The notes below the pieces were generated by a model that searched no databases, was not told where the DNA came from, and was given only the letters and a program-made list of their open reading frames with translations. A DNA stretch of 64,000 nt from Argopecten irradians. Its lineage: Eukaryota; Mollusca; Bivalvia; Pectinida; Pectinidae. Position 1 is the first letter of the stretch. Each line of letters opens with the position of its first letter. The translations under genes and the position numbers were made by a program. This document shows, piece by piece, positions 3,401 to 62,300 of the stretch. The DNA lies in NCBI RefSeq assembly GCF_041381155.1, contig NC_091142.1, forward strand, positions 36,195,604 to 36,259,603, given 5' to 3'.

Positions 3401-6400
3401 GAGAACATTTAATTCTATTCATTAAGATATTGTGAACATTTATTAAATATGCTTTTGCACCAACGAATGCTATTTTCTCTCTCTATCAAATACATGAGCA
3501 AAAACGAATTGATGTTTTTCTACAGAAAGTCTTAACTTCATTTCTACTTCTAAATAAAAATATAAAATAATTTATTACATCCCGAGAAAATGTCCATGCC
3601 ACTGTGCCCTATATGGAAAACACATTCACCAAATGTATTGTAACATAATATTAACATGATTAAATGCTAATTATTGCTCAAATAAATGAAAATTCATTGA
3701 ACGTGATATGAAAACAGCTCACTGGGAGAACTTATTTGACTACTGAAATGAAATGAAAACATAACTGAACGTGATATGAAAACAGCTCACTTTGAACACT
3801 TTGGGTCTACCAGTGATAAAGACTAAATATAGCATAGATACGACAAATGTACAGCAATGTCTTTAGTTAACCAACTTTTACATGTTAAGCAATCTAATTC
3901 AACAGATATAATTAATGCCGTTAATTAATTCGTACAGATATCAAAATTTGTAAAACATAAACGATAAGACAAACACGGTACAAGATCAAATATAAAGTTA
4001 AATAAATAGTGTGTTTACAATACACACTTTGTTTACAATACACACTTTGTTTACAATACACACTTTGTTTACAATACACACTTTGTTTACAATACACACT
4101 TTACGTTCATTCTGGGAACATTTTTTTCCTCCAGTGCAGTGAATTTTTATACAAGAAGTCAGTGAATTTGAACAAATTAATATGAAACTGAGAAACACAA
4201 TTATTTTTAACCCACATCATTTGGGTTTTTACGCGGCGGAAAAATACGGGCAATGGACCCTCTTGCTTCATATCCCCCTTAAAATGTCTTCTGGGGTTGG
4301 CATTAATAAAAAAAACTAATATGTGATATCTTGATAAAAAAATTAAAAATGAAATAAAATGGAGGAACTCTTTACAACCACACCACAACTCTCTTTAATA
4401 ATAAAAGCTTGAAAATATCATTTTTTAGATTGACCTCTGTGTATAATGAACTTACAAGATAAATTTGAAACACACAAAATACCTATCAGTCTTTTATGCA
4501 GATTTCTTTGTTTGCAGGTAACTAAGAGCGATGACTCAATAAAGAAAGATCAAATACAACAAATACTTGGGAATGATCACGGAATACTAGGAGTCTCTGA
4601 CTTGGTGAACGTCTCACATGGACATCCATTTCTGGTCCCTGTCCACCTGACCCTGCCTATTCCACTTCTACATCCTATACCTGAAATCGGAAAACCGTCT
4701 TTCTATGTCCTGCATGTAGAGGGCGATGAGGTACGGGAGTTAAAATCAGCAAATGTACAGAGAATAGATGATGACGTCTTTGAGATTATTACAGATTGTT
4801 TCAGCTCGTAAGTATTGAAGTGTGTTCATGACATTCCATCAGGTTATTCAACTCAATTCTTTTATTACCTTGAGCCTTTCGGCTCATGGCGTAGATATGT
4901 TATTTACCCGACAGTACTTTTGGGAAGTATGGGATATGTGTACTCTTGTAACGCAGATATATTAGAACATTTTCAATAAGAAATTGACAGAAGAGGATTT
5001 GAACCCTTTGCAAATCGTCGCTGCAAGCGAAAATTACGTTTTTTATATATATATTGCCTCCATTAGAGTATGAAAAATTATAACCTATGTTACTCAAATA
5101 ACCTTTCTTTGTCTAATTTCCGATTACAGTTTCCAACTTATCATTTTTAACTCACCTGACCCGAAGGGCCAGTGAGCTTATATCATGCCGCGTCGTCCGT
5201 CAACTTTTCATAAAAATCCCTTCTACCCATGAATGGCTGAATGGATTTTTACCAAATTTGGTCGGCAGATTTAAAAGGGACATAAACCTAAATAAACCTT
5301 GAAAGTTTGAATAAAATACATTTTTATGACATGCCAAATACCTTACTAAATATTGTAGTAAAATCATTGTACAATTATTTCAAGTATTTTTTTTAATATT
5401 CCATACTTCTATATTTTGGAGTGACCCGGTCGAGAAAATATGCTGAGTGAGCATTGAAGTTTAGCGACCTCCCACAGTTCACTGCACAAATGTTATAACG
5501 AAAATAAAAAAATATGGCTTACACTTCAAATGTCAACGAACGTAAATTTGAAAAGTGTATGGAAAACGAAAGTTCCTTGTCGAGCCATTGTTCATTATAG
5601 CTTCATTTTCATTTTGTGTTTTTTGTAAAAAAATAGAATATGACGGTCAATTTTTTATTATTTGGGGTTGATATTCCCACGTTTTTCTGACGTTTTAGAT
5701 AACCAATCATTGTAATAAAACCGCCAATAAACATAGGAAAAGCATATCTAAACATTCGGAGCAATTTATATTTGGTTCATGTCCCTTAAAACCATTTCGT
5801 ACCTTTCGATTTGCATCATTTAATGCATGGAAATAATATTTTCCGATGCCCACTATAAAAAAGAAACGTATATTGTGAAAGCCTTGAGTGATAGGAGAAT
5901 AAAACATGGCACGGGATGTGATAGACATTTGAAACAGCAGAACACATCGAAAAGTGAACTGTTAAACTGCTGCTGTCAGCATCAGAAAATATGTAATTCT
6001 AGCTGACCAAATCTTTAACATAAGAATGATAATGAACACCCCCTGCACTTGCTTTTTCTGCATTCCTTATAATGCCTGTTTTCCTGTTTTCTACCTCATC
6101 TTTCCCTTTCCATGTATCTCTCCTTCTCCAAATTGTACATATGTATGTATTTATTAAATTGTTTGACAACGTGTTCCCGGCCTCAAGCATGATTCCTACC
6201 CATATTTGAAAACTAAAATTATTAGGAATATCAATTCCAAATAATTAAACTTGTATGAAAACATTTTCTTTAGAGATTAAAGTCTCTTTCTGGTGGTTCT
6301 ATCGAAGGATAAAGTTGAGTAGAGTATCGATATTTGGTTCGGACCGCGAAGCGGTCCATGAAACTGATATCGATAACCTACTCAACTTTATCCTTCAATA

Positions 6401-15490: not shown

Positions 15491-15520
15491 ACAACAACAG
15501 AGCACAATTTGAATCCTAAA

Positions 15521-19289: not shown

Positions 19290-21480
19290 GCTTGCATTTC
19301 AACTTTCCGGATATAGACTGGAAATTACAAAACGCTAAAGGAGAAAACTTGTCATCGCAAGAACATATGTTTTTAGACTGTGTACAGGATTTATTTCTTT
19401 ATCAACACGTTCCGGAGCCAACAAGATGGAGAGTGGTGATAATCCACACATTTTGGATCTGTTATTAACAAATGAAGAAAATATGGTAACTGATTTGAGG
19501 TACAGAAGCCCGCTTGGAAAATGTGACCACTGTGTGTTACGGTTCGAATTTATATGCCATACAAAACCTACACAAGAATCCAAAAAGAGGAAATGCTACG
19601 ACAAGGCAAATTTTATAAGAGCCAATGAGGAACTGTCACATATTGATTGGACTGCATATCTGTCTAATACAGATGTAAATACAAAATGGTTTTTAATGCG
19701 AAATATTTTAAAGGACATTAAAGATAAATATGTACCAACGAAAACTTTTAAACCAGGAAAAATGAAGCAACATATCATTCCGTTGAATACCGAAACTAAA
19801 GAGAAAATAAAACTCAAGAACTCTTTGGCGCGGAAAGCGATTAAAACTAAAGATCCCGATACTCAAAGAGATTACAGACGAGCTTCAAATGCCGTAAGAA
19901 AACGAACGCGATTTTTACGTAAGAAACTAGAGTGTTAATTAGCCAAGAGGTCGAAGGAAAACCCGAAATTAATCTGGCAATATATAAATAGAAAGTCAAA
20001 AACTAAATCTGCTATAGGTGATCTTCACACGGATTACAACAACGAAACATCAGCGAAAACTGACAGAGATTGTATAAAAGCTGAAATTGTTTCACAGTTT
20101 TTCTGTAGTGTATTTGTGTCAGAGCCCAATGGTGATATTGCGGAAATTCCACAAAAAAGAATCAGAACAGAGATGGGAAACTTGATATTTACAAATGAAG
20201 AAACACAGAAAGCATTATTAAATCTCAATGTTAATAAATCCCCGGGACCAGACGGAGTACACCCACGACTTCTCAAAGAATTGGCAAATACAATTGCATT
20301 GCCATTAACAATACTATATAATCAGTCTATAGAAACGGGAAAGGTACCAACAGGATGGAAAGAGGCGCATGTATGTGTAATCTACAAAAAAGGGAACAAA
20401 TCAATCGCTGGAAATTACAGGCCCGTCAGTCTTAAGTCAGTTGTGTGCAAAATAATGGAAACGCTAGTTCGACAACACTTGGTAAATCATATGAAAGCCA
20501 ACTCCTTGTTCAGTAAGAAGCAATATGGTTTTATATCGGGAAGATCAACAACTCACATCGTCACATCTGGAGTTCCACAAGGGTCTGTAATAGGTCCGAT
20601 ATTGTTTGTTGTATACATAAATGACCTCCCGGATACTCTGCACTCTGAGACATACCTGTTCGTGGATGACACGAAAATATTCAGAGTTATCACTGAAGAA
20701 AATGATAAAACCATTCTACAAGAAGATCTCCATAATATGGTAGCATGGTGTGATACATGGCTCTTGAAACTGCATCCTGGGAAATGTGTACACATGCACT
20801 TAGGAAGGACATTGTTAACGATTGCACGTACTACCTTGCTGATACAAACTTAAAGAAATCACAAGTGGAAAAAGACTTAGGAGTAATGATCGATAGCAGC
20901 CTCGAATTCGAAAACCATATATTTGAAAAAAATCAAAAGAGCAAATATGATGATGGCAATAATACGAAGAGCATTCATAAATTTGGACAAAGAACCTTTA
21001 TATTATTATATAAATCGTTAGTGAGAACTCATCTTGATTTCGCATGTGTTATCTGGTTTCCGTACAAAGCGAAATACATCGAAAAAATCGAAGGAGTACA
21101 AAGAAGGGCAACAAGGCTGGTCGCTGAAATTAAAAACCTTTCATACATAGACAGACTAAAATATCTACAATTACCAATATTAGCGTTCAGGAGACAGCGA
21201 GGAGATATGATAGAAATTTACAAAATAACCAACGGAATGTACGATCGTGAAGCTACGAGATTTTTGAAGATGTGGAAAGATGTTTCGTCGCGGTCCGGAA
21301 ATAGAGGAAATTCTTTAAAAGTAAACCCTCAACAATGTAACACTGTAAAGAGAAAAAAACAACTGTGGAACAATTTACCGGAGAGTGTTGTTCGTGCTAA
21401 GAACTTAAATTGTTTTAAAAATGGACTGGATAGGCATTGGAAAAATATCGATCTATTTTATGATTTCAAGGCTAATTGAC
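19290..21480 (+). mobile_element. 5'-truncated, broken LINE (Jockey/CR1-like)
   Basis: The endonuclease end (FNFPDIDW near 19300; NPHILDLLLTNEENMV near 19441) is followed by reverse transcriptase (KSPGPDGVHPRLLKEL near 20236; GNYRPVSLKSVVCKIMETLV; SGVPQGSVIGPILFVVYIND near 20568; LFVDDTKIF near 20659). The C-terminal part contains LVRTHLDFACVIWFPYK and RLKYLQLPILAFRR and ends LFYDFKAN at 21476. Frameshifts lie near 19425 and 20810 and there is a stop at 19936. A deletion of roughly 80 codons joins ISGRSTT to SGVPQG and removes the first catalytic aspartate block. It is dead, but better preserved than the LINEs at 0.7 and 37.4 kb. Confidence 0.92.
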
Positions 21481-24410: not shown

Positions 24411-24721
24411 TCATTCTCGCATTTTAAAAGAATCCTTTTTGTTGAATGCTTTTTCGAACCTTTCTGCAAGTGCTGTTTGCTCAATCCCAATCAACGCGTC
24501 CTTTAGTACTTTAAGTCTTATAAACGGATTTGTACTTTCATTATCAAGCCAGTATAGAAGCAGTCTGAGCTTTAACTGATTTTTGTCTTGAGGATGAGGA
24601 AAATTTTCCGCTAGTTGATCAGCAGTTACTATTGGTACATGTAAACATGTTGCAAAAGTGTGGTATTCACGGTCGGGTATCTGCCTTGCCAGGAGGGCCA
24701 TGCTTTTCTCTGAGAATACTT
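24411..24721 (-). CDS. Gene B exon 7: Death domain
   Basis: The exon starts after TTTTGTAG and ends at TGA. It includes LLARQIPDREYHTFATCLHV, LRLLLYWLDNES and LKDALIGIEQTALAERFEKA. The tail ends KMRE because a local duplication brings an early stop; gene D continues 14 residues further. The 5' half equals gene D while the 3' half differs strongly. Confidence 0.88.
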
Positions 24722-27700
24722 CTACAAAACAAAATAATAGTGTATCAATTTTATGTGTTCGTAACAAATGTCTACATTAAATAAAAAAGGCCATGTATTG
24801 CAAATCATTGAATTTGTTTTGTTTCACATGATGAGGAGGTTAGTCTTGTTTCAGACACTTCAATGGAACTATAATGACACACAAAATATATATCCTTTAC
24901 TGAGGACAATTATCATGACCAAATAAACGCTAATGATACCAAGAATCAAAATTACCTGCATATTTTCCTTGTATAGACTGGTCTTTGCATTTTGGAATTC
25001 GTTTGTCATGTTCCTCATGGCCATGCTGTGCAGTTTTCTTTATCTCATCTATGTCGACAGAGATGTTGCCATGAGCTCCAATACTTTTAGGAATACCACT
25101 TGTATCACTTCCGTAACTCGACGGTGATTGAGGACCGGATACTTCCCGTTTGTAAACGATGGATTGCAGTCCTGATGTTTTATATAACGTTTCTCGCGAT
25201 GACGACATCGACAAGCCTAGGTTTTTTCGCTTCTTCATTTCTGTCAAGACATGGAACGTTGCTTTGTGAAGTGGTCTGCGATATTTCCCTTTATCCACGT
25301 CGTACTCCAGTGTAGCGAACTCACCAACCCCGTACGCTTGATGTCTCTCTACATAAAATGACAGGGAGTTATCCTTATTGTTACTGTCAAACATTATAAA
25401 CGGACTTACCCGAGGAGAGTGCATAGGGAAGCGGATCGCCGTATTTAAGGCCAGCGAAACCCTTACTCTGTCCATATTTTTCAGTCTTATGGTTGGTGAA
25501 GTACATATTTGAATTAAGTTCATTCCCAGTTCTTCCATACGCTCTTTACTCATTTCCTTTCTTTCATCTTGGCTCACTATTTCCGAGCGGAGATATAATA
25601 GCTTTCCTTCTGTTATGATTTTAGAAAAGAGTAGGATGTTACATCGTGGATCGTCAAGGTTATAAACTAATTTGACTACCGATTTTATTTGCACAGAACG
25701 AACGAGTTGTCGTTGTCTAGTGACAATCACTCTGAAATGTAAAATAAAGTAAAAGATAAACTGAAGAACATTGTAGCAAAAGCTTCACATAGACAAGGAC
25801 GCAATGGCATACGGATTTGGAACGATAGCTGTTCATCCTATTGAAATCACAAAGAAAGAACTTTTTCTTGTCTGGAATTTTGAATCATCGCGCCCATAGG
25901 CGCCACATGGATTCGAACTTGCAACCAGAGGTGAATACCTTGTGATAATACGACGGGTCATTTAAACCACTGCCACCGCAGCCCCTCGTGACCCAGAGAT
26001 TGAGGACTTGTGGTATTAGATGTATGTTAGGACATCTTCACCACTCGTCACCACGGCCCCTTTTGACTCAGAGATGGTGGGCTTGGTGTAATATGTTGGG
26101 ACATCTTAATCACTCGGCCATCACGGCCCGCTGTGACTCAGAGATAGAGGACCAGGTGTAATATATTGGGATATCTTAACCACTCGGTCACCACTGCCTC
26201 TTGTGACTCGTATATTGGGGGGCTTGTGGTAATATGTCGGGACATTATGAAAATGATTTTAGCATTACTGCCAAAAATAATTATATTTACATCCACAGTG
26301 TAGTGAAATGAGTACATACAGCCAGGCCATGAAGCCGAGCTGTGGTCTACAAATACTATTATACTTCTACAGCATTATTAATAATTATAAAGTGATTTCT
26401 GCAGGCATGTTTCTATTTAAACATCCGTAAGGCATAAAAAACAAGACATTTACAGTGCATAAAGTCGATGGTGTAACTAATGCTTACAAGGCATCATAAA
26501 TGTTTGTCTGTCTATTTGAATGATTTTTACAGCATCATTAATCAAATCTAGTGGTTTCATATAGATCATTGAAGAAAAAGTATAATGATCTAATAATTAT
26601 TACGTGACGTCACATTGCACCCATAGCGAACCACCAGCGTTCCAAAAAAGACTGAATGGATATTTATAATTTCCATTGCGGCTATAAATAGAAGTTCATT
26701 GAAGATATTATCAAAATCCATTTATATATTTATATTTCAATATCAATTTGTCATGTTGTATTGTCCTATTGGCAACCTCGACATGCGAAGAATGACAGTA
26801 CGAAACCATGCCAGGCGTAGAGCAACACGCGCTATCCGAAGAGCGATGGTGTGTCACGCGATGAGCTATAATGTATACAAGTATTAGCTTCCCAAAAAGC
26901 TATGAAGGCTACCATACAGCATTAATTATCAGTAAGCAATAATAGGAAAGCTTGACGAATTGTTCTGTTCACAGATAGCTGCCATTGTTCTTATGACAAT
27001 TCATTTGTGAAGAATGATAATTTAAAAGCTTTCACATACAATGTAAAAGATAATAAACTTCATGGTTTTCATGAAAGGGTCACTAGGCTACCTTTTCGAA
27101 ACAAACAAAAATAAAAAAGTCTCTTTAAAACAATTATAACATAATAAAATTGATAATGATGGCCAATGATGAGGTTACAACACTAACGAAGTTGAAGTTT
27201 TGCTGTCTGGCGCAGAAATAGGTAGTCAACTAACACGACGTCGGGAAACATAATACGACCTGAGCTATGAAAATTAACGTTTTGTTTATTTTAATAAAGT
27301 TTTTCAGAAGGTGTAGTGGGCTTTTTCCTAATGCTAACAAGTTTTCCGTCTAATATACACTGTACTGATATACATGTACATGTACTTGGACAAGTTGGTG
27401 AAATACATGATATACGCATAGAAACAAGCATAACATTTCGTTTAAAAATGTACTTTACTTTAGCGCATACAGTTCCACATATATCCCCTAAGTAAAGCCT
27501 AACTTTGTTTCAGCATTTCCCATGCTACGGAAAGTTTTTACAAGTAGGTCATGATTATCGAGCTAACAGTACTAGTTAGGCTCTATATAGATCCTCAACG
27601 CGCTCCTGAAATTGTTTCAATTCAGTACGTGTAGCGCCGTCTTGTGTGATTTCTGAGAATAATGTCCGACAACCAGAAAAACATTCGGACCTCTCTGGGT

Positions 27701-30700
27701 TCATCTAATGATAATCTGTTTGCAATAAATTCCCAACTGGTACCCTTTACACACATGAAATCTTCAACAACAAGTAACCAATCAACACACGTAAATCGTT
27801 TTGGCCAGCCAATCAAAGTGAACAGACTATTTATAACAATGTGAAATCCCAACAACATGGCAGGCAAAGCGACCGATTATAATAGCTACCACATTGGGAT
27901 GGTAGCGATAATGCGAAAAGCGACAATGTAACAACTCGCACACAACAGTGATACTTCATGACAGACGAAAGTACTCACGGATAAAAGTGAAACTTCATAA
28001 CAAACGGAAGTACTCACGACAAAACTGAAACTTCATAACAGACGGAAGTTCTCACGGACACAACTGAAACTTTATAACAGACGGATCTACTGATGGACAA
28101 AAGTGATACTTCATGACAGACGGAAGCACTCACGGACAAAAGTGATACTTCATGACAGATAGAAGCACTCACGGACAAAAGTGAAACTTCATAACAGACA
28201 GAAGCAGATCTCACGGACAAAAGATGATATTTCATGACAGATAGAAGTACTCAAGGACAAAAGGTGATATTTCATGACAGATAGCAGTACTCAAGGACAA
28301 AAGTGATACTTCATGACAGACGAAAGTACTCACGGACAAAAGTGATACTTCATGACAGACGGAAGTACTCACGGACAAAAGGTGATATTTCATGACAGAT
28401 AGCAGTACTCAAGGACAAAAGTGATACTTCATGACAGACGGAAGTACTCACGGACAAAAGGTGATATTTCATGACAGATAGAAGTACTCAAGGACAAAAG
28501 TGTTACTTCATGACAGATAGAAGTACTCATGGACAAAAGTGATACTTCATGACAGACGGAAGTACTCACGGACAAAAGTGAAGTTTCATGACAGATAGAA
28601 GTACTCACGGACAAAAGTGATACTTCATGACAGACGGAAGTACTCACGGACAAAAGTGAAGTTTCATAACAGACGGAAGTATTTACGGACAAAAGTGATA
28701 CTTCATGGCAGACGGAAGTACTCACGGACAAAAGTGAAACTTCATAACCGACGGAAGTACTCACGGACAAAAGTGATACTTCATGACAGACGGAAGTACT
28801 CACGGACTAAAGTGATACTTCATGACAGATAGAAGTACTCACGGACAAAAGTGATACTTCATGACAGACGGAAGTACTCACGGACAAAAGTGATACTTCA
28901 TGACAGATAGAAATACTCACGGACAAAAGTGATACTTCATGACAGATAGAAGTACTCACGGACAAAAGTGAAACTTCATAACAGACGGAAGTACTCACGG
29001 ACAAAAGTGAAACTTCATACCAGACGGAAGTACTCACGGACAAGTGATACTAATGACAGACGGAAGTACTCACGGACAAAAGTGAAACTTCTTAACAGAC
29101 GGAAGTACTCACTGACAAAAGTGAAACTTCATAACAGACGGAAGTACTCACGAACAAAAATTATACTTCATGACAGACGGAAGAACTCACGGACAAAAGT
29201 GAAACTTCATAACAGACGGAAGTACTTACGAACAAAAGTGATATTTCATGACCGATAGAAGCACTCACGGACAAAAGTGAAACTTCATAACAGACGGAAG
29301 TACTCACGGACAAAAGTGATAATTCATGACAGACGGAAGTACTCACGGACAAAAGTGATACTTCATGACAGATAGAAGTACTCACGGACAAAAGTGATAC
29401 TGCATGACAGACAGAAGTACTCACGGACAAAAGTGATACTTCATGACAGATAGAAGTACTCACGGACAAAAGTGAAACTTCATAACAGACGGAAGTACTC
29501 ACGGACAAAAGTGAAACTTCATAACAGACGGAAGTACTCACGGACAAGTGATACTCATGACAGACGGAAGTATTCACGGACAAAAGTGAAACTTTATAAC
29601 AGACGGAAGTACTAACAAACAAAAGTGATACTTCATGACAGATAGAAGCACTCACGGACAAAAGTGAAACTTCATAACAGACGGAAGTACTCACGTACAA
29701 GTGTTACTCATGACAGACGGAAGTATTCACGGACAAAAGTGAAACTTCATAACAGTCGGAAGTACTAACAAACAAAAGTGATACTTCATGACAGATAGAA
29801 GCACTCACGGACAAAAGTGAAACTTCATAACAGGCGGAAGTACTCACGGACAAAAGTGAAACTTTATAACAGACGGAAGTACTTACGAACAAAAGTGAAA
29901 CTTCATAACAGACGGAACTACTCACGGACAAAAGTTATATTTCATGACAGTCGGAAGTACTCACGGACAAAAGTGATCCGTTGTAACCTCAAACAGGTTT
30001 GGTTCGACCTCCTTTATTGTCGCCGATTCCAACTCCTTAACCTCACCGTCCTCTACATACAGGACAAGTGCAGTAGGCTGTTCACCTTCAGGAGTAGGCT
30101 GGAGAGACTGTATAGGCAGTGTCAGGCGCACAGGAACTTGAAAGTTGTGTTCATGTGTCACGTTCACTTTGTCGGAGATTCCAAGCATACCATGATCCTT
30201 CCCAAGTAACTGAGTTATCTTCCGACTTTTAATTGCTTCATCAAGGGAGGTAACCTTAAAACAAAAGTATAATTGTTCCAACGGATCATTTTTAAAGATT
30301 TGTAATAATTTTCTATACTATTTTACGATAACTCTTAGTCAACAATTTTGGTTTTGGTTTTATTAGTTTAACGTTAGTGTAACGGCCATTGTCACACAAC
30401 AATAAAATGCGTAGCCATGAATTCATTACTTCTTTTTTACAGGAGTATTGCTTTTTGATTAGTGCTCAAAATGTTAACCATCTACCTCGACAGTGACTGT
30501 CATGGTACTCCGTACCGCACCAGGAGGGAAGTCTAGTTTCATGTCTTCATTTTGCGGATCCAACTCCATCACACCACCTGCCTTCGTAACGTCAAATGTC
30601 TGAGTTTCAACCTCAGACGTTATAAACACGGCATCAATATCAAACTGGTCTGTTTCAATGCCCACAGTCATCTGTCCGACCTAAGAAAGAATAAATATTT

Positions 30701-32294
30701 CACGATTTTTTTTTTTTTTTTTTTTTTTTTTTGAATTGATTCCGTTAGGTTAAACGATGTTAACCATATAATTAAAAAACAATAATAATGCAATGTACCT
30801 TCATCTTCACCTCATGACGAGTCCATGTTTCTTTTCCTCTTTGTCTCACATGGAAGGTATATATGGCGTTGCGCGTAGGGGTTTTAGGTTCAAAAATTAC
30901 TTCCATAAAACCATCTGAATTTTTTAATATGAAACTTTCTTTTTCGGTTTTGCTTTCAAGTGTAACATAGGGCATAGGATATATGTCCCTTTTTGCACAT
31001 TCAGCCTCGGTCAGAGTTGGGCTGGATATATCCACGCCTATTACAGTTGATTCGATTGTGATTTTGTCGTTTTGAATCTCTTTTGAGGGGAATTCTTTGT
31101 TTCTTTTTTCTGGGTCCCATGGCTTAGTTTTAACACAGATTAAGTCTTTGTAACTTATGCCTCTGAAATGTAAAAATATAATCCCTTGATAAATGAGCAT
31201 TTATGTTATATGTAAATTTTGACTTTGAAATAACATCATTGTTCAGGTCTAGTATAGGGGAAAGTAACTCTTAAGGGATCTTTAAACAACCTATATTACT
31301 ATAACTCTTATCTTCATCCTATTCTTACCATAACTCTACATCATTTGGATCATTATCTAATGATGATTTTATGTGTTCTAGAAATAAATAGCGTAAAACA
31401 TTTCGTAATAAGAACATTTTGATAAACCATTTTCTGAAAAATTTAAAAAATGAGTGTTTACAATATGAATTACGCTGAAAAAACCATGGTCATCGTTCGA
31501 TGTTCCCCAATATTTATTTGAACGAGTCGTTGTATGAGTGTGATGTTTATGTTAATTACATATCGTTATAAAGACTAAATTGATTTCACATCTGATTGTA
31601 AATATCGTGTTCACTTACTCGTCCATTCTGCGATCTTCTATGTTTGGAAGTGAAACCTCGTCCAATCTGCAATATGATTGGTGTAATATTTATAAGATAG
31701 AAAGCTGATACTGAAATCTGACAATAACTTGGTGATAGATTGGTATGACTAGAACTATTCGTTCTGTACTTTTCGTTCTTTTTCTATATTAATTAGATTG
31801 CTTGCTGTTAGCTATTAACACTTATTACACGGATACAATTAAACCGCCAAAATTTCCTCTTCGTATACTATTTTGTGTGTGCATGGAATTTTATTGGTAA
31901 TAGCTAGATGTTGTGTATTATAAATGCCGTGAAATGTATTTTATGTGCCGATCGCAAAATAAAAATCATTTATGAATGAGCGAGAGAATGGGTCAGTAAA
32001 TGGGAGTAAACTATATTATGAAAATATACAATAAACATCCATGATTGTAAAAACATTTAAATACTGGTATGACACTATGAATTTATTGATTGACTAATAT
32101 CAAGTTTACATGTAGGTATGAAAGTGTATACGTGAATACATTAATTGTATTATGTTATTTACAATTGTTTATGTATTAATGAAATGATACGTTGGGAAAA
32201 CATACAAAGTATTATTCGACGAGGTTGACACATAATTATGTACTTATGATTCTGTATAGAAAATAGTTTATTACCTGCTTGGCTTACTGCCCAT
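24411..32294 (-). CDS. Gene B: intact ZU5-UPA-Death protein, 667 aa
   Basis: Exons complement(join(24411..24721, 24956..25731, 29965..30254, 30486..30680, 30799..31162, 31619..31666, 32275..32294)) sum to 2004 bp in one open frame. The start MGSKPSRLDEVSL is preceded by an in-frame stop in the same exon. Domains: N-terminal beta-rich region (about 23-144, family not recognised), ZU5 (about 173-305, with KAGGVMELDP and FPPGAV at 195-200), HFCP at 303-306, UPA-like region (about 307-500), a polar Ser-rich linker, and Death domain (about 572-660). No LRR, signal peptide or membrane segment is visible. Relatives such as PIDD1 are cytoplasmic scaffolds for Death-domain partners; this protein's partner is unknown. 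Intron 5 holds the splice-donor minisatellite. This is the only one of the four paralogues without a frameshift. Confidence 0.87.
24956..25731 (-). CDS. Gene B exon 6: UPA-like region and linker
   Basis: 776 bp, phase 2 in and phase 1 out, starting after CATTTCAG. It reads LVYNLDDPRCNILLF, YLRSEIVSQDERKEM, CTSPTIRLKNMDRVRVSL, DNSLSFYVERHQAYG and FATLEYDVDKGKYRRPLHKA, then a Ser-rich stretch. UPA assignment rests on position after ZU5 and before the Death domain, and on beta-strand spacing. Confidence 0.82.
25890..26246 (-). mobile_element. Tandem tRNA-derived SINE heads, copy in gene B intron 5
   Basis: On the - strand GACCGAGTGGTTAAGAT-like A boxes repeat about every 80 bp, four times, and one unit at the 3' end has a B box (GGTTGCAAGTTCGAATCC, 25909-25926). 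From memory the sequence resembles a Ser/Leu-tRNA-like SINE head common in molluscs. The identical array is in gene D. Confidence 0.75.
27947..29964 (-). repeat. 39-bp minisatellite with splice donors, about 52 copies
   Basis: In gene sense each unit reads GTGAGTACTTCCGTCTGT, then CATGAAGTATCA, then CTTTTGTCC. TTTTGTCC|GTGAGT is the exact end of exon 5 plus its donor, and ATCACTTTTGTCC matches 13 exon bases. The array begins directly at the true donor (29964) and fills the exon-proximal half of intron 5. Some units have GTAAGT (TTTTGTTCGTAAGT); others have lost the GT (CCTTGAGT). Because 39 is divisible by three, long open frames appear on both strands (VSLLSVSTSVCHE on -); I do not call them genes. 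Confidence 0.97.
29965..30254 (-). CDS. Gene B exon 5: second half of ZU5, ends HFC
   Basis: 290 bp, starting after TTTTAAG and ending TTTTGTCC before GTGAGT. It reads LLGKDHGMLGISDKVNVTHE, VPVRLTLPIQ, LVLYVEDGEVKELESA and FEVTTDHFC; the next codon (P) is split by the intron. HFC occupies the HFS self-cleavage position of PIDD1. Confidence 0.9.
30486..30680 (-). CDS. Gene B exon 4: first half of ZU5
   Basis: 195 bp, phase 0 at both ends, acceptor TTCTTAG, donor GTAGAT. It contains KAGGVMELDPQNEDMKLDF followed by PPGAVRSTMTVTVE, a clear ZU5 signature. A T-run of about 20 bases (30709-30732) lies in the preceding intron. Confidence 0.9.
30799..31162 (-). CDS. Gene B exon 3: N-terminal beta-rich region
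   Basis: 364 bp, starting after CATTTCAG. It reads GISYKDLICVKTKPWDPEKR, IQNDKITIESTVIGVDI, then FMEVIFEPKTPTRNAIYTFH. The family is not recognised; it could be a degenerate first ZU5, as PIDD1 has two, but that is a guess. Confidence 0.82.
31619..31666 (-). CDS. Gene B exon 2 (48 bp)
   Basis: A microexon encoding LDEVSLPNIEDRRMDE, after ATTGCAG and before GTAAGT. The frame joins exons 1 and 3 without a stop. The identical exon is in gene D; gene C lacks it and uses a longer first exon. Confidence 0.75.
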
Positions 32295-49900: not shown

Positions 49901-52336
49901 GTATTGGAAAATCAATGGAATCGTACGTATAAACGTATTTCATTTAATCAAGGAGTCTAGAAAATTAATTATAAGCATTGATGTCAGGGTTTTTTTTTTA
50001 AATCTCATCGGATTATGAAATACCTTTTGGGTAAAAATTTTTGTGTGAGAAATCCGCTACACGGATTCAAACAGTTTGCAAACAAAACTTCTTTCAAAGC
50101 CTGATGGAATTAGAAAAGTGACGTCAATGCTTAACTACCATCTACAGTTTAATTTAATACATTTCGATTATACCATTTGTATTTTGTTCATCTAAACTTG
50201 AGTAATTATAAAGTTATGTAATTGCCATGGCTTGAGATGTATCTATAATATTAGCGATCATTTACGTTATATGATATATATGAGATGCATAACCTACCAT
50301 AATTGTATTGATTAAATTATAAAACAATACTCACGAACAGAAGTGATCTATCTCAACATCGATGAGATTTGGTTTTACTTCCTTTACATTGGCTGTTTCC
50401 AACTCCTTTATGTCACCGTCTTTTATATAAAAGACACGAAATGAAGGTGTTTCACCCTCTGTAATATGCTGCATTGGTTCGATAGGCAGTCTCAGGCGAA
50501 CAGGTTTCAGGAAGTGGCCTTCATGTGAAATCTTGACCTTGTCTGATATTCCAAGTATTCCATGATTGTTCCCCAGGATTTGATCAAGTTTGATATGTTT
50601 TGCCATAGCATCTATATCAGTTATCTACGGACAAACATACAACAATAACTTATTTGAAATTTTATTTCTTTATCGCTCACCGTAAATACGTAATGCTTTG
50701 GTCACACTTATCGGCCGATATCCAGGGATAGGGGGTAATCGGGAGTACATCGTTGGTTTTGGCCATTTTTCCGACATCGGACAACACCGGTAAAAATTGT
50801 CTCACATCATTTACATAAAAAGGAGGCTGCACAGTATTAGTACGGCGTCTGTTTCCAAAGATATTTTTCTTTGAGCACGTTACTGCTGCCTGAGAGCCTC
50901 GACCATCGCCAGGCAACGTCTGGTGGCTGGGGACCAGGCTAAAATGGCTAAACATCATATCGGAGGTACATCCGAAGGCTAATCGGAAGGGGTTGTGACC
51001 AAAGCATAAATAATTACTTGTAACGTTATTCCACAGGCTACTTAACTTATTTTCTCAATTTATCATTTCCTCATTTTTATACACATACCTGGATGGTGGT
51101 CGTTTTAGTATCCTCAACTGAATCTCTAGGAAATTGAATTTCCATATCGTCTCTTCTAGGATCCAGTTTCCACAGACATCCTTTCTTAGTAACATCAACA
51201 ATGTGATATTCAGTTCGAGACGTTACAAAAACAGCGTCGATACTGTTCCGGTCAATATCAATGCTTACTGCTGTCGCTCCTTCCTAACAAAAGAAATACA
51301 CTTTAAGGTTCCAATCAAATAAGAACTTTCCCATCGTAATGGATCGTTTGACCACTTTGAGACGAAAATAATAAACGCGTGTCTTATATGTACACATAGT
51401 ATATGGCTTTATCATTTGAACCAGTGTTTTAAGTCAACACAGAACTAAAACACTACTTTTGCTAACATAGTTGTTTCGAAAGTCTTTTATGATAACAAAC
51501 GTAGATGTTTTTCACTTATTGTTTAAACTAAGATTACGTTTAGAAAAGAATTGAAACCAAAACGTTTTGTACCTCCATCCTGACGTCATGACTATCCCAT
51601 GTTTCATGCAATTTCTGTCTAAACATGAAAGGTGTAGATGACATTGCGCTTAGGGAGACTTGGTTCAAAGGAAACTTTGAACTGGCCATCATCTATTGAT
51701 GAAAACATGTTTTGTTCCTGTCGGTTGTCGAGGAGAATGTGGGATACAAGTTGTATGTTTTCATTTTCAAATTGTGCTATTGTCATTGTTTTATTCCTTA
51801 CAGCAACGCCAAACACGCTAGATTCGACGATAACTCTGTCATTTTGGATGTCTGCTGTAGGAAATTCCATTCTTCTTTTTTTCTGCATCCCAGGGTTTTA
51901 TTTGGACATGTAGTATTGGCTTGCTGAGACGATATCTGAAATGTGTAAATAATCACATTGATATTCGGAAAATAGACGATAAGTAGACTTGATTTTGTAT
52001 TGCATTAAAGTTTGGTTCTGTATTGTTCTATATTCCGTATAATTAATAAATTAAAAGGTTCCTAATCGTTGAGCTAAGGTTCCTAATCGTTGAGCTTAAC
52101 GATCAAACAGGTACAATGCCTTTCTTGCATTATGTTCGTATTGCTATTAACAAATATTTACTTATAACTATTCTGAATCACACATTTCAAACCTAAATAT
52201 TTGCCTTTTCGGTCTTTATGATATTTGAAAAGACTTATTCCAACCTTTCATGGTAATCCTGTTGCAATGTCAGTGTGGCAATGCTACTGTCTTTTTCCAA
52301 GGCTATTGGATATTTTTCAATTCCATGATGATCCAT
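46571..52336 (-). CDS. Gene C: diverged ZU5-UPA-Death paralogue with two frameshifts
   Basis: Exons complement(join(46571..46905, 48283..48872, 50335..50624, 51089..51283, 51573..51935, 52245..52336)). The architecture is as in gene B but well diverged; it ends ZU5 with IDHFCS and has a Death domain with an 18-residue tail. It starts MDHHGIEKYPIALEKDSS in a 92-bp coding part and lacks B's 48-bp exon. Within exon 51573-51935 two single-base insertions relative to B (an A7 run near 51878 and GTTTAG near 51618) break the frame, so it is a pseudogene or carries homopolymer base-call errors. The remaining exons are open. Its start is only 609 bp from the end of gene D, the same strand. Intron 5 has no 39-bp array. 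Confidence 0.75.
48283..48872 (-). CDS. Gene C exon: UPA-like region
   Basis: It starts after GTTTTAG and includes SLYDQDDPRCQILLFAKTE, CTSPTIRLKNMDKVKVSFGS and DNSLSFHVERKTDD. Two donors six bases apart, GTAATA then GTAAGT, both keep phase 1; I used GTAAGT. It is about 190 bp shorter than B because the Ser-rich linker is reduced. Confidence 0.82.
49645..49757. repeat. Foldback 5, GC-rich cap GACGCGC...GCGCGTC
   Basis: The outer arms CACTAGTGTATGAACGGC and GCCGTTCATACACCAGTG pair. The centre GACGCGCTGACGCGACGCGC then GTC is a second palindrome. The loop differs from the GCGAAGC type. It lies in gene C intron 5, the intron that holds the array in B and D. Confidence 0.85.
50335..50624 (-). 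CDS. Gene C exon: second half of ZU5, ends HFCS
   Basis: 290 bp, acceptor CCGTAG, donor GTTC|GTGAGT. It contains LGNNHGILGISDKVKISHEG, KPVRLRLPIE and IDHFC. The junction CACTTCTGTTC|GTGAGTATT is single copy, showing the pre-array state. Confidence 0.88.
51089..51283 (-). CDS. Gene C exon: first half of ZU5
   Basis: 195 bp, phase 0 to phase 0. It reads EGATAVSIDIDRNSIDAVFV, KKGCLWKLDPRRDDMEIQF and EDTKTTTIQ. The PPGA motif is replaced by PRDS. Confidence 0.83.
51573..51935 (-). CDS. Gene C exon: N-terminal region, frame broken twice
   Basis: After CATTTCAG: YRLSKPILHVQIKPWDAEK, then in a shifted frame MEFPTADIQNDRVIVESS to NVIYTFHV, then in another frame QKLHETWDSHDVRME. Its length of 363 bp against 364 in B agrees with a net two-base gain modulo three. 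Confidence 0.72.
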
Positions 52337-52356: not shown

Positions 52357-52897
52357 CTGCAAAACATATAATAATATTAACATTGCCGTGCGTTACCACT
52401 ATAATTATTTCATATGAATGTAGTATTTTTTGTGTTCGCACGCAATGGTATTTTGATTAGAGTATCTTTTTTATATATATTTATTATATTGAAACTTATA
52501 CACAATACAATGAAGCCAGATTATAGTTAAAGTGTTTTAATACTGCTGATACTATCATGAAATATATTCGGATTAAAAGTAACATGTGGCTTCTTGGCAG
52601 TTACTCGTACGACTACAAACATTCATGTATTATATAGGTAGATGTATACCTCTGAATTAATCTACAATTTAATTCGATATTTAAAGTCAATATTGCTCGA
52701 TTAATATGATTTTTATATTAGCTGTAAGTATTATCTCGATTAGATGCAGTGCGACATTTACTCAGCTGTACCATAAAGACCTACGGTAAGGTATTGTAGT
52801 TTAATAGTTAACCCACTGAACGAAGGTCTTGGATATTTCTTGCGTGAATCTCATGTTAATCTAGTGAAATGCAAATGAAACTGATTGTTTCAAAAGT

Positions 52898-52903
52898 TTT
52901 ATT
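52898..52903 (-). promoter_or_regulatory. Poly(A) signal of gene D
   Basis: AATAAA on the - strand about 42 bp past the gene D stop; it corresponds to the gene B signal at 24254. Confidence 0.55.
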
Positions 52904-52944
52904 GAATTGATATTTTGCCTTCATATTATCGATTAAGAATAACA

Positions 52945-53300: not shown

Positions 53301-56300
53301 CTACAAAACAAAATGATAGTGTATCAATTTTATGTGTAACAAATGTCTACATTAAAAAAAAATAGCCACGTATTGCAAATTATTGAATTTGTTTTGTTTC
53401 ACATGATGAGGAGGTTAGTCATGTTTCAGACACTTAAATGGAACTATTATGACACACAAAATATACATCCTTATCTGAGGACAATTATCATGACCAAATA
53501 AACGCTAATGATACTAAGAATCAAAATTACCTGCATATTTTCCTTGTATAGACTGGTCTTTGCATTTTGGAATTCGTTTGTCATGTTCCTCATGGCCATG
53601 CTGTGCAGTTTTCTTTATCTCATCTATGTCGACAGAGATGTTGCCATGAGCTCCAATACTTTTAGGAATACCACTTGTATCACTTCCGTAACTCGACGGT
53701 GATTGAGGACCGGATACTTCCCGTTTGTAAACGATGGATTGCAGTCCTGATGTTTTATATAACATTTCTCGCGATGACGACATCGACAAGCCTAGGTTTT
53801 TTCGCTTCTTCATTTCTGTCAAGACATGGAACGTTGCTTTGTGAAGTGGTCTGCGATATTTCCCTTTATCCACGTCGTACTCCAGTGTAGCGAACTCACC
53901 AACCCCGTACGCTTGATGTCTCTCTACATAAAATGACAGGGAGTTATCCTTATTGTTACTGTCAAACATTATAAACGGACTTACCCGAGGAGAGTGCATA
54001 GGGAAGCGGATCGCCGTATTTAAGGCCAGCGAAACCCTTACTCTGTCCATATTTTTCAGTCTTATGGTTGGTGAAGTACATATTTGAATTAAGTTCATTC
54101 CCAGTTCTTCCATACGCTCTTTACTCATTTCCTTTCTTTCATCTTGGCTCACTATTTCCGAGCGGAGATATAATAGCTTTCCTTCTGTTATGATTTTAGA
54201 AAAGAGTAGGATGTTACATCGTGGATCGTCAAGGTTATAAACTAATTTGACTACCGATTTTATTTGCACAGAACGAACGAGTTGTCGTTGTCTAGTGACA
54301 ATCACTCTGAAATGTAAAATAAAGTAAAAGATAAACTGAAGAACATTGTAGCAAAAGCTTCACATAGATAAGGACGCAATGGCATACGGATTTGGAACGA
54401 TAGCTGTTCATCCTATTGAAATCACAAAGAAAGAACTTTTTCTTGTCTGGAATTTTGAATCATCGCGCCCATAGGCGCCACATGGATTCGAACTTGCAAC
54501 CAGAGGTGAATACCTTGTGATAATACGACGGGTCATTTAAACCACTGCCACCGCAGCCCCTCGTGACCCAGAGATTGAGGACTTGTGGTATTAGATGTAT
54601 GTTGGGACATCTTCACCACTCGACACCATGACCCCTTTTGACTCTGAGATGGTGGGCTTGGTGTAATATGTTGGGACATCTTAATCACTCGGCCATCACG
54701 GCCCGCTGTGACTCAGAGATAGAGGGCCTGGTGTAATATATTGGGACATCTTAACCACTCGGTCACCACTGCCCCTTGTGACTCGTATATTGGGGGGCTT
54801 GTGGTAATATGTCGGGACATTATGAAAATGATTTTAGCATTACTGCCAAAAATAATTATATTTACATCCACAGTGTAGTGAAATGAGTACATAAAGCCAG
54901 GCCATGAAGCCGAGCTGTGGTCTACAAATACTATTATACTTCTACAGCATTATTAATAATTATAAAGTGATTTCTGCAGGCATGTTTCTATTTAAACATC
55001 CGTAAGGCATAAAAAACAAGACATTTACAGTGCATAAAGTCGATGGTGTAACTAATGCTTACAAGGCATCATAAATGTTTGTCTGTCTATTTGAATGATT
55101 TTTACAGCATCATTAATCAAATCTAGTGGTTTCATATAGATCATTGAAGAAAAAGTATAATGATCTAATAATTATTACGTGACGTCACATTGCACCCATA
55201 GCGAACCACCAGCGTTCCAAAAAAGACTGAATGGATATTTATAATTTCCATTGCGGCTATAAATAGAAGTTCATTGAAGATATTATCAAAATCCATTTAT
55301 ATATTTATATTTCAATATCAATTTGTCATGTTGTATTGTCCTATTGGCAACCTCGACATGCGAAGAATGACAGTACGAAACCATGCCAGGCGTAGAGCAA
55401 CACGCGCTATCCGAAGAGCGATGGTGTGTCACGCGATGAGCTATAATGTATACAAGTATTAGCTTCCCAAAAAGCTATGAAGGCTACCATACAGCATTAA
55501 TTATCAGTAAGCAATAATAGGAAAGCTTGACGAATTGTTCTGTTCACAGATAGCTGCCATTGTTCTTATGACAATTCATTTGTGAAGAATGATAATTTAA
55601 AAGCTTTCACATACAATGTAAAAGATAATAAACTTCATGGTTTTCATGAAAGGGTCACTAGGCTACCTTTTCGAAACAAACAAAAATAAAAAATATCTTT
55701 AAAACAATTATAACATAATAAAATTGATAATGATGGCCAATGATGAGGTTACAACACTAACGAAGTTGAAGTTTTGCTGTCTGGCGCAGAAATAGGTAGT
55801 CAACTAACACGACGTCGGGAAACATAATACGACCTGAGCTATGAAAATTAACGTTTTGTTTATTTTAATAAAGTTTTTCAGAAGGTGTCGTGGGCTTTTT
55901 CCTAATGCTAACAAGTTTTCCGTCTAATATACACTGTACGGATATACATGTACATGTACTTGGACAAGTTGGTGAAATACATGATATACGCATAGAAACA
56001 AGCATAACATTTCGTTTAAAAATGTACTTTACTTTAGCGCATACAGTTCCACATATATCCCCTAAGTAAAGCCTAACTTTGTTTCAGCATTTCCCATGCT
56101 ACGGAAAGTTTTTACAAGTAGGTCATGATTATCGAGCTAACAGTACTAGTTAGGCTCTATATAGATCCTCAACGCGCTCCTGAAATTGTTTCAATTCAGT
56201 ACGTGTAGCGCCGTCTTGTGTGATTTCTGAGAATAATGTCCGACAACCAGAAAAACATTCGGACCTCTCTGGGTTCATCTAATGATAATCTGTTTGCAAT

Positions 56301-59300
56301 AAATTCCCAACTGGTACCCTTTACACACATGAAATCTTCAACAACAAGTAACCAATCAACACACGTAAATCGTTTTGGCCAGCCAATCAAAGTGAACAGA
56401 CTATTTATAACAATGTGAAATCCCAACAACATGGCAGGCAAAGCGACCGATTATAATAGCTACCACATTGGGATGGTAGCGATAATGCGGAAAGCGACAA
56501 TGTAACAACTCGCACACAACAGTGATACTTCATGACAGACGAAAGTACTCACGGATAAAAGTGAAACTTCATAACAAACGGAAGTACTCACGACAAAACT
56601 GAAACTTCATAACAGACGGAAGTTCTCACGGACACAACTGAAACTTTATAACAGACGGAACTACTGATGGACAAAAGTGATACTTCATGACAGACGGAAG
56701 CACTCACGGACAAAAGTGATACTTCATGACAGATAGAAGCACTCACGGACAAAAGTGAAACTTCATAACAGACAGAAGCAGATCTCACGGACAAAAGATG
56801 ATATTTCATGACAGATAGAAGTACTCAAGGACAAAAGTGATACTTCATGACAGACGAAAATACTCACGGACAAAAGTGATACTTCATGACAGACGGAAGT
56901 ACTCACGGACAAAAGTGTTACTTCATGACAGATAGAAGAACTCAAGGACAAAAGTGATACTTCATGACAGATAGAAGTACTCAAGGACAAAACTGAAACT
57001 TCATAACAGACGGAAGTTGTCACGGACACAACTGAAACTTTATAACAGACGGAACTACTGATGGACAAAAGTGATACTTCATGACAGACGGAAGCACTCA
57101 CGGACAAAAGTGATACTTCATGACAGATAGAAGCACTCACAGACAAAAGTGAAACTTCATAACAGACCGAAGCAGATCTCACGGACAAAAGGTGATATTT
57201 CATGACAGATAGAAGTACTCAAGGACAAAAGTGTTACTTCATGACAGACGGAAGTACTCACGGACAAAAGTGATACTTCATGACAGATAGAAGTACTCAA
57301 GGACAAAAGTGTTACTTCATGACAGATAGAAGTACTCAAGGACAAACGTGATACTTCATGACAGATAGAAGTACTCAAGGACAAAACTGAAACTTCATAA
57401 CAGACGGAAGTTGTCACGGACACAACTGAAACTTTATAACAGACGGAACTACTGATGGACAAAAGTGATACTTCATGACAGACGGAAGCACTCACGGACA
57501 AAAGTGATACTTCATGACAGATAGAAGCACTCACAGACAAAAGTGAAACTTCATAACAGACAGAAGCAGATCTCACGGACAAAAGGTGATATTTCATGAC
57601 AGATAGAAGTACTCAAGGACAAAAGCGTTACTTCATGACAGATAGAAGTACTCAAGGACAAAACTGAAACTTCATAACAGACGGAAGTACTCACGGACAA
57701 AAGTGATACATCATGACAGACGAAAGTACTCACGGACAAAAGTGATACTTCATGACAGATAGAAGTACTCAAGGACAAAAGGTGATATTTCATGACAGAT
57801 AGAAGTACTCAAGGACAAAAGTGTTACTTCATGACAGATAGAAGTACTCATGGACAAAAGTGATACTTCATGACAGACGGAAGTACTCACGGACAAAAGT
57901 GAAGTTTCATAACAGACGGAAGTACTCACGGACAAAAGTGATACTTCATGACAGACGGAAGTACTCACGGACAAAAGTGATACTTCATGACAGACGGAAG
58001 TACTCACGGACAAAAGTGATACTTCATGACAGATAGAAGTACTCACGGACAAAAGTGATACTTCATGACAGACGGAAGTACTCACGGACAAAAGTGAAGT
58101 TTCATAACAGACGGAAGTACTCACGGACAAAAGTGATACTTCATGACAGACGGAAGTACTCACGGACAAAAGTGATACTTCATGACAGATAGAAGTACTC
58201 ACGGACAAAAGTGATACTTCATGACAGACGGAAGTACTCACGGACAAAAGTGATACTTCATGACAGATAGAAGTACTCACTGACAAAAGTGAAACTTCAT
58301 AACAGACGGAAGTACTCACGAACAAAAATTATACTTCATGACAGACGGAAGTACTCACGGACAAAAGTGATACTTCATGACAGATAGAAGTTCTCAAGGA
58401 CAAAAGTGATACTTCATGACTGACGAAAGTACTCACGGACAAAAGGTGATATTTCATGACAGATAGAAGTACTCACGGACAAAAGTGTTACTTCATGACT
58501 GACGAAAGTACTCACGGACAAAAGGTGATATTTCATGACAGATAGCAGTACTCAAGGACAAAAGTGATACTTCATGACAGACGGAAGTACTCACGGACAA
58601 AAGGTGATATTTCATGACAGATAGAAGTACTCACGGACAAAAGTGTTACTTCATGACAGATAGAAGTACTCATGGACAAAAGTGATACTTTATGACAGAC
58701 GGAAGTACTCACGGACAAAAGTGAAGTTTCATAACAGACGGAAGTACTCACAGTCAAAAGTGAAGTTTCATAACAGACGGAAGTACTCACGGACAAAAGT
58801 GATACTTCATGACAGACGGAAGTACTCACGGACAAAAGTGATACTTCATGACAGATAGAAGTACTCACGGACAAAAGTGATACTTCATGACAGACGGAAG
58901 TACTCACGGACAAAAGTGAAGTTTCATAACAGACGGAAGTACTCACGGACAAAAGTGATACTTCATGGCAGACGGAAGTACTCACGGACAAAAGTGAAAC
59001 TTCTTGACAGATAGAAGTAATCACGGACAAAATTGATACTTCATGACAGACGGAAGTACTCACGGACAAAAGTGATACTTCATGACAGATAGAAGTACTC
59101 ACGGACAAAAGTGATACTTCATGACAGATAGAAGTACTCACGGACAAAAGTGAAACTTCATAACAGACGGAAGTACTCACGGACAAAAGTGAAACTTCAT
59201 ACCAGACGGAAGTACTCACGGACAAGTGATACTAATGACAGACGGAAGTACTCACGGACAAAAGTGAAACTTCTTAACAGACGGAAGTACTCACTGACAA

Positions 59301-62300
59301 AAGTGAAACTTCATAACAGACGGAAGTACTCACGAACAAAAATTATACTTCATGACAGACGGAAGAACTCACGGACAAAAGTGAAACTTCATAACAGACG
59401 GAAGTACTTACGAACAAAAGTGATATTTCATGACCGATAGAAGCACTCACGGACAAAAGTGAAACTTCATAACAGACGGAAGTACTCACGGACAAAAGTA
59501 AATCTTCATAACAGAAGGAAGTACAATGTACTTACGAAAAAAGTGATACTTCATGACAGATAGAAGTACTCACGGACAAAAGTGAAACTTCATAACAGAC
59601 GGAAGTACTCACGGACAAAAGTGATAGTTCATGACAGACGGAAGTACTCAAGGACAAAAGTGATAATTCATGACAGACGGAAGTACTCACGGACAAAAGT
59701 GATACTTCATGACAGATAGAAGTACTCACGGACAAAAGTGATACTTCATGACAGATAGAAGTACTCACGGACAAAAGTGAAACTTCATAACAGACGGAAG
59801 TACTCACGGACAAAAGTGAAACTTCATAACAGACGGAAGTACTCACGGACAAGTGATACTCATGACAGACGGAAGTATTCACGGACAAAAGTGAAACTTT
59901 ATAACAGACGGAAGTACTAACAAACAAATGTGATACTTCATGACAGATAGAAGCACTCACGGTCAAAAGTGAAACTTCATAACAGACGGAAGTACTCACG
60001 GACAAAAGTGAAACTTCATAACAGACGGAAGTACTTACGAACAAAAGTGAAACTTCATAACAGACGGAAGTACTCACGGACAAAAGTGATACTTCATGGC
60101 AGACGGAAGTACTCACGGACAAAAGTGAAACTTTATGACAGATAGAAGTAATCACGGACAAAAGTGATACTTCATGACAGACGGAAGTACTCACGGACAA
60201 AAGTGATACTTCATGACAGATAGAAGTACTCACGGACAAAAGTGATACTTCATGACAGATAGAAGTACTTACGGACAAAAGTGAAACTTCATAACAGACG
60301 GAAGTACTCACGGACAAAAGTGAAACTTTATACCAGACGGAAGTACTCACGGACAAGTGATACTTATGACAGACGGAAGTACTCACGGACAAAAGTGAAA
60401 CTTCTTAACAGACGGAAGTACTCACGAACAAAAATTATACTTCATGACAGACGGAAGAACTCACGGACAAAAGTGAAACTTCATAACAGACGAAAGTACT
60501 TACGAACAAAAGTGATACTTCATGACCGATAGAAGCACTCACGGACAAAAGTGAAACTTCATAACAGACGGAAGTACTCACGGACAAAAGTAAATCTTCA
60601 TAACAGAAGGAAGTACAATGTACTTACGAAAAAAGTGATACTTCATGACAGATAGAAGTACTCACGGACAAAAGTGAAACTTCATAACAGACGGAAGTAC
60701 TCACGGACAAAAGTGATAGTTCATGACAGACGGAAGTACTCAAGGACAAAAGTGATAATTCATGACAGACGGAAGTACTCACGGACAAAAGTGATACTTC
60801 ATGACAGATAGAAGTACTCACGGACAAAAGTGATACTTCATGACAGATAGAAGTACTCACGGACAAAAGTGAAACTTCATAACAGACGGAAGTACTCACG
60901 GACAAAAGTGAAACTTCATAACAGACGGAAGTACTAACAAACAAAAGTGATACTTCATGACAGATAGAAGCACTCACGGACAAAAGTGAAACTTCATAAC
61001 AGACGGAAGTACTCACGGACAAAAGTGAAACTTTATAACAGACGGAAGTACTTACGAACAAAAGTGAAACTTCATAACAGACGGAACTACTCACGGACAA
61101 AAGTTATATTTCATGACAGTCGGAAGTACTCACGGACAAAAGTGATCCGTTGTAACCTCAAACAGGTTTGGTTCGACCTCCTTTATTGTAGCCGATTCCA
61201 ACTCCTTAACCTCACCGTCCTCTACATACAGGACAAGTGCAGTAGGCTGTTCACCTTCAGGAGTAGGCTGGAGAGGCTGTATTGGCAGGGTCAGGCGCAC
61301 AGGAACTTGAAAGTTGTGTTCATGTGTCACGTTCACTTTGTCGGAGATTCCAAGCATACCATGATCCTTCCCAAGTAATTGAGTTATCTTCCGACTTTTA
61401 ATTAGCTTCATCAAGGGAGGTAACCTTAAAACAAAAGTATAATTGTTCCAACGGATCATTTTTAAAGATTTGTAATAATTTTTCTATACTATTTTACGAT
61501 AACTCTTAGTCAACAATTTTGGTTTTGGTTTTATTAGTTTAACGTTAGTGTAACGGCCATTGTCACACAACAATAAAATGCGTAGCCATGAATTCATTAC
61601 TTCTACAGGAATTTTTACAGGAATATTGCTTTTTGATTAGTGCTCAAAATGTTAACCATCTACCTCGACAGTGACTGTCATGGTACTCCGTACCGCACCA
61701 GAAGGGAAGTCTAGTTTCATGTCTTCATTTTGCGGATCCAACTCCATCACACCACCTGTCTTCGTAACGTCAAATGTCTGAGTTTCAACCTCAGACGTTA
61801 TAAACACGGCATCAATATCAAACTGGTCTGTTTCAATGCCCACAGTCATCTGTCCGACCTAAGAAAGAATAAATATTTCATGATTTTTTTTTTTTTTTTT
61901 TTTTTTTTGAATCGATTCCGTTAAAATATGTTAACCATATAATTAAAAAACAATAATAATGCAATGTACCTTCAGTTTCACCTCATGACGAGTCCATGTT
62001 TCTTTTCCTCTTTGTCTCACATGGAAGGTATATATGGCGTTGCGCGTAGGGGTTTTAGGTTCAAAAATTACTTCCATAAAACCATCTGAATTTTTTAATA
62101 TGAAACTTTCTTTTTCGGTTTTGCTTTCAAGTGTAACATAGGGCATAGGATATATGTCCCTTTTTGCACATTCAGCCTCGGTCAGAGTTGGGCTGGATAT
62201 ATCCACGCCTATTACAGTTGATTCGATTGTGATTTTGTCGTTTTGAATCTCTTTTGAGGGGAATTCTTTGTTTCTTTTTTCTGGGTCCCATGGCTTAGTT

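Follow-up and report, generated by a model that had tools for sequence, protein, structure and literature searches.

A 39-bp minisatellite built on an exon-intron border in a bay scallop gene cluster is probably a tolerated, mirage-type array

When the border of an exon with its intron is repeated dozens of times in tandem, the RNA presents the splicing machinery with many near-identical cut sites. The window analyzed here, a 64-kb stretch of DNA from the 846-Mb genome of the bay scallop Argopecten irradians (C9:36195604-36259603), carries such a repeat at the end of exon 5 of a minus-strand gene that we call gene B. We placed exons 3 to 7 of this gene, and a spliced model of exons 4-7 (523 amino acids) matched NCBI protein P0001 with 100% identity and 100% coverage. 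Exon 5 ends after codon position 2 in TTTTGTCC, followed by GTGAGT, with DHFC-P as its final residues. The 39-bp unit of the array reads ATCACTTTTGTCC/GTGAGTACTTCCGTCTGTCATGAAGT on the minus strand (the slash marks the border), so that each unit comprises 13 exon and 26 intron bases; in the first copy, these 13 bases are the end of exon 5 itself. A first-pass annotation had described a 39-bp unit holding these 13 bases and the following GTGAGT, which the unit parse bore out, but its statement that the array starts exactly at the true donor was wrong, since the array begins at position 29977, 13 bases inside the exon.

Two sister arrays, neither of which the first-pass annotation mentioned, were found in the paralogous genes D, within the window, and F, outside it (Table 1). 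The B, D, and F arrays have the same donor as their start, have two variants of unit 1 in common and have near-identical far edges, while the exon part of the unit in F differs by one base from that in B and D. Their lengths diverge widely: B has 52 full units, D has 118, and F has 36. The estimate of about 52 donor-like copies in gene B was right in the number of full units, but not every unit is donor-like. Among the 51 internal B units, 45 contain the GT, 40 GTRAG, and 37 GTGAGT, so that with the true donor 46 of the 52 full units have a GT; the corresponding counts were 97, 88, and 82 for the 117 internal units of D and 34, 31, and 28 for the 35 internal units of F. As a result, GTRAGT occurs 9.2 times per kb on the sense strand of gene B intron 5, compared to a background of 0.76 per kb (+) and 0.44 per kb (-) once the three arrays are removed from the joined 204 kb.

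We then compared the predicted strength of these donors in arrays B and D, using ViennaRNA energies for pairing with the U1 5' end. A GT together with U1 pairing at least as good as that of the true donor was present in 29/51 internal B units and 64/117 internal D units, so strength alone fails to single out the first donor. The NCBI protein has exon 5 joined to exon 6 at that donor. Since over half of the internal units in B and D have a GT and equal or exceed the true donor in U1 pairing, the choice of the first donor would have to depend on position or context rather than on strength. Reading past this donor in the exon frame yields DHFCP and a stop in B and D and DHLCP and a stop in F, the first in-frame stop being a TGA in unit 1 (CCG TGA). 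Use of a later donor, or retention of the intron, would therefore end the protein there. Decay of stop-bearing RNAs is expected.

Taken together, these observations make it probable that the array is a tolerated, slippage-born minisatellite of the mirage type, unusually long, that can be explained without any function for the extra donors. The first duplication would have come from slippage during replication at imperfect direct repeats spaced 39 bp apart, as suggested by a degenerate copy of the unit at the far edge (ATCACTGTTGTGTGCGAGT in B and D), and unequal exchange would have changed the length later. Exon definition would favor the donor nearest exon 5, allowing the array to be tolerated, and any transcript that used a later donor or kept the intron would meet the TGA in unit 1 and be destroyed or encode a truncated protein.

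The relatives of gene B allowed us to ask where the array came from. A search with exon 5, in which 10 candidates were scored, gave eight matches at E <= 0.01, which all lie on contig C9 within ~210 kb: the array is present in three of them (B, D, and F), while the other five (A, C, E, G, and H) have a single junction. Along the joined 204 kb, gene A (+) is followed by B, C, D, E, and F (all -), and G and H lie further left on the same contig. An exact 24-base core of the unit had 61 matches in the whole genome, all of them within arrays B, D, and F, which ruled out a dispersed satellite or transposon-borne repeat as the source insofar as exact matches are concerned. No remnants of the unit scored above the 95% shuffle level in the four array-less introns searched (those of A and C and ~1.5 kb of those of G and H, with the first 30 nt excluded).

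The exon end is older than the array, because C and E each share 11 of the unit's 13 exon bases and because a protein of another scallop, Mizuhopecten yessoensis, reads NHFCPV at this place. The intron half of the unit looks ancestral too: intron positions +7 to +16 of gene G are identical to the unit at 7/10 positions, the other three differences being transitions, and a match as good as this was found for 336 of 114,376 10-mers outside the window's arrays (0.29%). We ranked G as the closest homologue by its exon 5 identity (75% vs 53-61%), since a tree of seven rows, from which D and E were excluded as near-copies, grouped B and F at 100/100 while leaving G, C, and M. yessoensis unplaced around them. 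B, D, and F carry the array at one and the same donor and have edge variants in common, whereas the junction is single in five relatives. The most likely origin is therefore a single seeding event, by duplication of a real exon-intron border in an ancestor of B, D, and F, followed by changes in length as the genes duplicated. The first-pass annotation had proposed seeding by duplication of an exon-intron border, a claim now well supported by the restriction of the core to the cluster, the single junctions in 5/8 homologues and the partial match in the G intron. Its reports of the junction in single copy in C (CACTTCTGTTC/GTGAGT) and of a related one in A (TTTCAGCTC/GTAAGT) were likewise confirmed, and only its dating of the array to after the split of these genes needed refinement: its presence in B, D, and F alike places the array before these three separated.

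The scallop array joins a kind of repeat already known as a mirage, which has been described in the lancelet (amphioxus) genes for Adh3, the globins BflGb6 and BflGb9, and troponin C, with repeats in PGBD5 likened to them (PMC3902484). Like mirages, the scallop arrays consist of units of exon plus intron sequence anchored at a border, contain splice signals in many units and are unstable in length, and in anatomy they correspond to the lancelet arrays, which are reported to be tolerated, with normal splicing (PMC3087553, PMC3902484). They differ in that the scallop arrays have 36-118 units, compared to 6 and 3 in two amphioxus BflGb6 haplotypes, occur in another phylum, are common to three paralogues and meet a TGA at once upon read-through. 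In a literature search on minisatellites and splicing, which left most subscription journals outside its coverage, mirages were reported only for lancelets, and a search on scallops and bivalves with the same coverage gave no mollusc border array among the matches listed. A human border is also repeated in the 31-bp variable number tandem repeat of CBS, c.1444_1467+7(16_21), which by its name comprises 24 exon and 7 intron bases and varies in copy number (PMC2630376). This is a single human locus with 16-21 copies, whereas the scallop unit is two-thirds intron and its longer arrays lie in duplicated genes. In a 68-bp duplication of the CBS border, one of two equal sites is reported to be strongly favored (PMC2630376), providing a precedent for choice by position. 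Splice sites are also repeated along a tandem repeat in human UBC, as tandem dual-specific splice sites, but those repeats encode protein, their AGGT sites work both ways, and the isoforms stay in frame (PMC10809524), whereas the scallop units are intronic except for the first 13 bases, and read-through hits a stop.

The scallop arrays stand out by their size and because the paralogues expose their history. They extend exon-border minisatellites to a mollusc in which relatives from one cluster, with the border in single copy, reveal how such an array came about. Close paralogues with 36, 52, and 118 border units also offer a natural experiment in splice-site choice. They also bear on the proposal that border arrays feed intron gain (PMC3087553).

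Several points weigh against a tolerated array seeded from this border. The first-donor junction in the NCBI protein may be a pipeline prediction, and strength does not set that donor apart from the 29/51 internal B units that have a GT and equal or better U1 pairing. Donor columns +2 and +4 are invariant in all 203 internal units of B, D, and F, although columns +17 and +20 are likewise invariant in B and D. The exon part of the unit matches only 7/13 positions in G, 6/13 in A, and 5/11 in H, and intron positions +7 to +16 match the unit at only 4/10 positions in C, 5/10 in A, and 5/10 in H, making G the best of four introns tried. In addition, the tree cannot order G, C, M. yessoensis, and the B/F group, and a degenerate array beyond the reach of the exact-core search may exist elsewhere in the genome. 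Finally, the slippage and exon-definition steps are ones that we infer.

Weak constraint on genes that are losing function could instead have let a harmful junction array grow in B, D, and F. Near its start, exon 5 of gene D has a single-base insertion compared with B and F, which shifts the frame and may reflect either a pseudogene or an assembly error, and the B-F comparison over exons 3-7 gave a proportion of nonsynonymous differences (pN, 0.0231) close to that of synonymous ones (pS, 0.0298). However, B and F are open across the stretches of exons 3-7 that were read, and when exon 7, which adjoins a recombination point, was omitted, pN (0.0044) was below pS (0.0153) between B and D, albeit with only 10 changes; for B and F, the same omission gave a weaker lean toward synonymous change (pS 0.0244, pN 0.0166). 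B and F are also 94-99% identical in exon 6 blocks, compared to 85-92% in the final ~950 nt of the intron before the array, a contrast that could come from gene conversion. On balance, we regard loss of function as unlikely.

A second alternative, which extends a suggestion of the first-pass annotation, is that the donors form a functional U1 array, recruiting the U1 small nuclear ribonucleoprotein to slow, buffer or divert splicing of the intron; suppression of premature polyadenylation or nuclear retention of the transcript would belong to the same proposal. The frequent retention of the GT and of strong U1 pairing in internal units, the invariance of columns +2 and +4 and the persistence of the array in three gene copies would all fit this possibility. 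When the donor columns are taken together, however, they vary like the others: variation at +1 to +6 was no lower than in random columns (P = 0.36; 203 internal units, 96 of them distinct), and 14 of 39 six-column windows were as low in variation as the donor. Columns +1 and +3 are often variable, and the +1 G, among the more variable positions, has been lost in 27/203 internal units (26/168 in B and D, 1/35 in F). Unit number also differs more than 3-fold among the paralogues, and lancelet arrays of like kind have been reported without disturbance of splicing (PMC3087553, PMC3902484). Conservation within the units thus gives no sign of selection keeping the extra donors, although selection may act on them, and we consider a functional U1 array distinctly unlikely.

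We judged it equally improbable that B and D are two assembled versions of a single locus, with 52 and 118 units as its two alleles. Two haplotypes of a bivalve could differ at the levels observed: identity is 98.2 and 98.5% for the long B-D matches flanking the arrays and 99.0-99.2% for C-E matches, compared to ~94-98% for B-F pieces. F is nevertheless a separate copy, and D does not read as a second version of B's own surroundings: over ~52.8-53.2 kb, its identity is 0.97-1.00 to F and 0.84-0.91 to B, while further right it is B-like. D thus looks like a chimera produced by unequal crossover, with the recombination point at 52723-53500 (F-like leftward, B-like rightward), and the B-C block recurs as D-E. 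The B and D arrays differ by 66 units despite their near-identical flanks, and array length presumably changes by unequal exchange.

The position of the array within the encoded protein raised the further idea that it acts as a splicing rheostat at a protein-processing border, its length setting the ratio of full-length protein to the form ending in DHFCP and thereby tuning a death-domain immune protein. If true, the first donor would give a full ZU5-UPA-death domain protein, another donor or retention would give the DHFCP end, almost exactly the N-terminal ZU5 autocleavage piece, and rapid change in array length would tune the protein. Proteins with ZU5, UPA, and death domains of the PIDD, UNC5, and NLRP1 type carry the autocleavage motif HF/S or SF/S (PMC3210808). 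Exon 5 of gene B ends no more than two residues from a candidate site of this type, HF/C, which is shared by B, C, D, E, and G, with HL/C in F, RF/S in H, and CF/S in A. The gene B protein contains a death domain, but its match to ZU5 was weak (Pfam E = 0.13, 13 bits vs a cut-off of 21), as it was in two of the four members of set A1 (best E = 0.14). Outside the death domain, the AlphaFold model was of low quality (mean predicted local distance difference test score, pLDDT, 43.9), and Foldseek found no match to it at E <= 0.001. Queries against solved structures produced no significant match, either with a single sequence (best E = 0.33) or with a profile (none), comparison of solved ZU5 domains with the model brought none to prominence except ankyrin G chains at a root-mean-square deviation of ~14, and exon 3 alone as a query found no homologue. 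We consider the rheostat very improbable.

In the reverse course of events, the exon would have adopted the sequence of an existing satellite or mobile element that had landed at its end. This would account for the unbroken run of the unit into the exon but is scarcely credible, since the residues encoded by the 13 shared bases are also conserved in another scallop and in relatives lacking the array, and the exact core has no copy outside B, D, and F.

Table 1. Positions of the arrays and of exons and introns in the gene cluster. Window-scale coordinates extend the window numbering beyond its 64 kb.
Feature	Position	Strand	Remarks
Array B	27942..29977	-	Tandem Repeats Finder (TRF) period 39, 52.3 copies; wrap-around parse, 52 full units and 11-nt partial
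Gene B exon 3	30799..31161	-	first residues of P0001 precede this exon
Gene B exon 4	30486..30680	-	
Gene B exon 5	29965..30254	-	290 nt; acceptor TTTTAAG/GTT, donor TGTCC/GTGAGT; 100% match to P0001
Gene B intron 5	25732..29964	-	4233 nt, about half of it array
Gene B exon 6	24956..25731	-	UPA-like fold, low-confidence model
Gene B exon 7	24411..24721	-	death-domain-like fold; stop codon at end
Array D	56516..61146	-	118 full units and partial; GT in 97/117 internal units
Gene D exon 5	61134..61424	-	junction as in B
Gene D intron 5	54307..61133	-	6827 nt
Array F	window-scale 90207-91626, beyond window	-	36 full units
Gene C exon 5	50335..50624	-	single junction CACTTCTGTTC/GTGAGTATTG, without array
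Gene A exon 5	4518..4807	+	single junction TTTCAGCTC/GTAAGTATTG, without array

Other repeats were observed in the same region. The intron that holds the border array also contains a 70-bp x 3.2 array in both B (26023-26245) and D (54598-54820), away from the exon borders, and a 30-bp array with 60- and 90-bp higher-order periods lies after gene C (45367-46383), with a counterpart after gene E (window-scale 76406-77450). Both the 70-bp array and the one after gene C were considered as border arrays and rejected, since neither touches an exon border. A perfect 29-bp tandem repeat of 2.1 copies (15463-15523) overlaps the end of the last coding exon of gene A.

Retrotransposon reverse transcriptase frames were located at 19339-21476 (RVT_1, E = 5.1e-21 for 19939-20850), and frames at window-scale -14032 to -9807 are ones that we take to resemble reverse transcriptase and tyrosine recombinase, perhaps from a DIRS-like element. 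At window-scale -16268 to -15686 (C9:36179335-36179917), a 73-bp x 8 array (L012) directly follows an acceptor-like TTTTTGTAACAG. Its unit has a 33-nt stretch that is open in one frame and then a donor-like GTAAGT, making it, from the array sequence, a possible second candidate for an exon/donor array.
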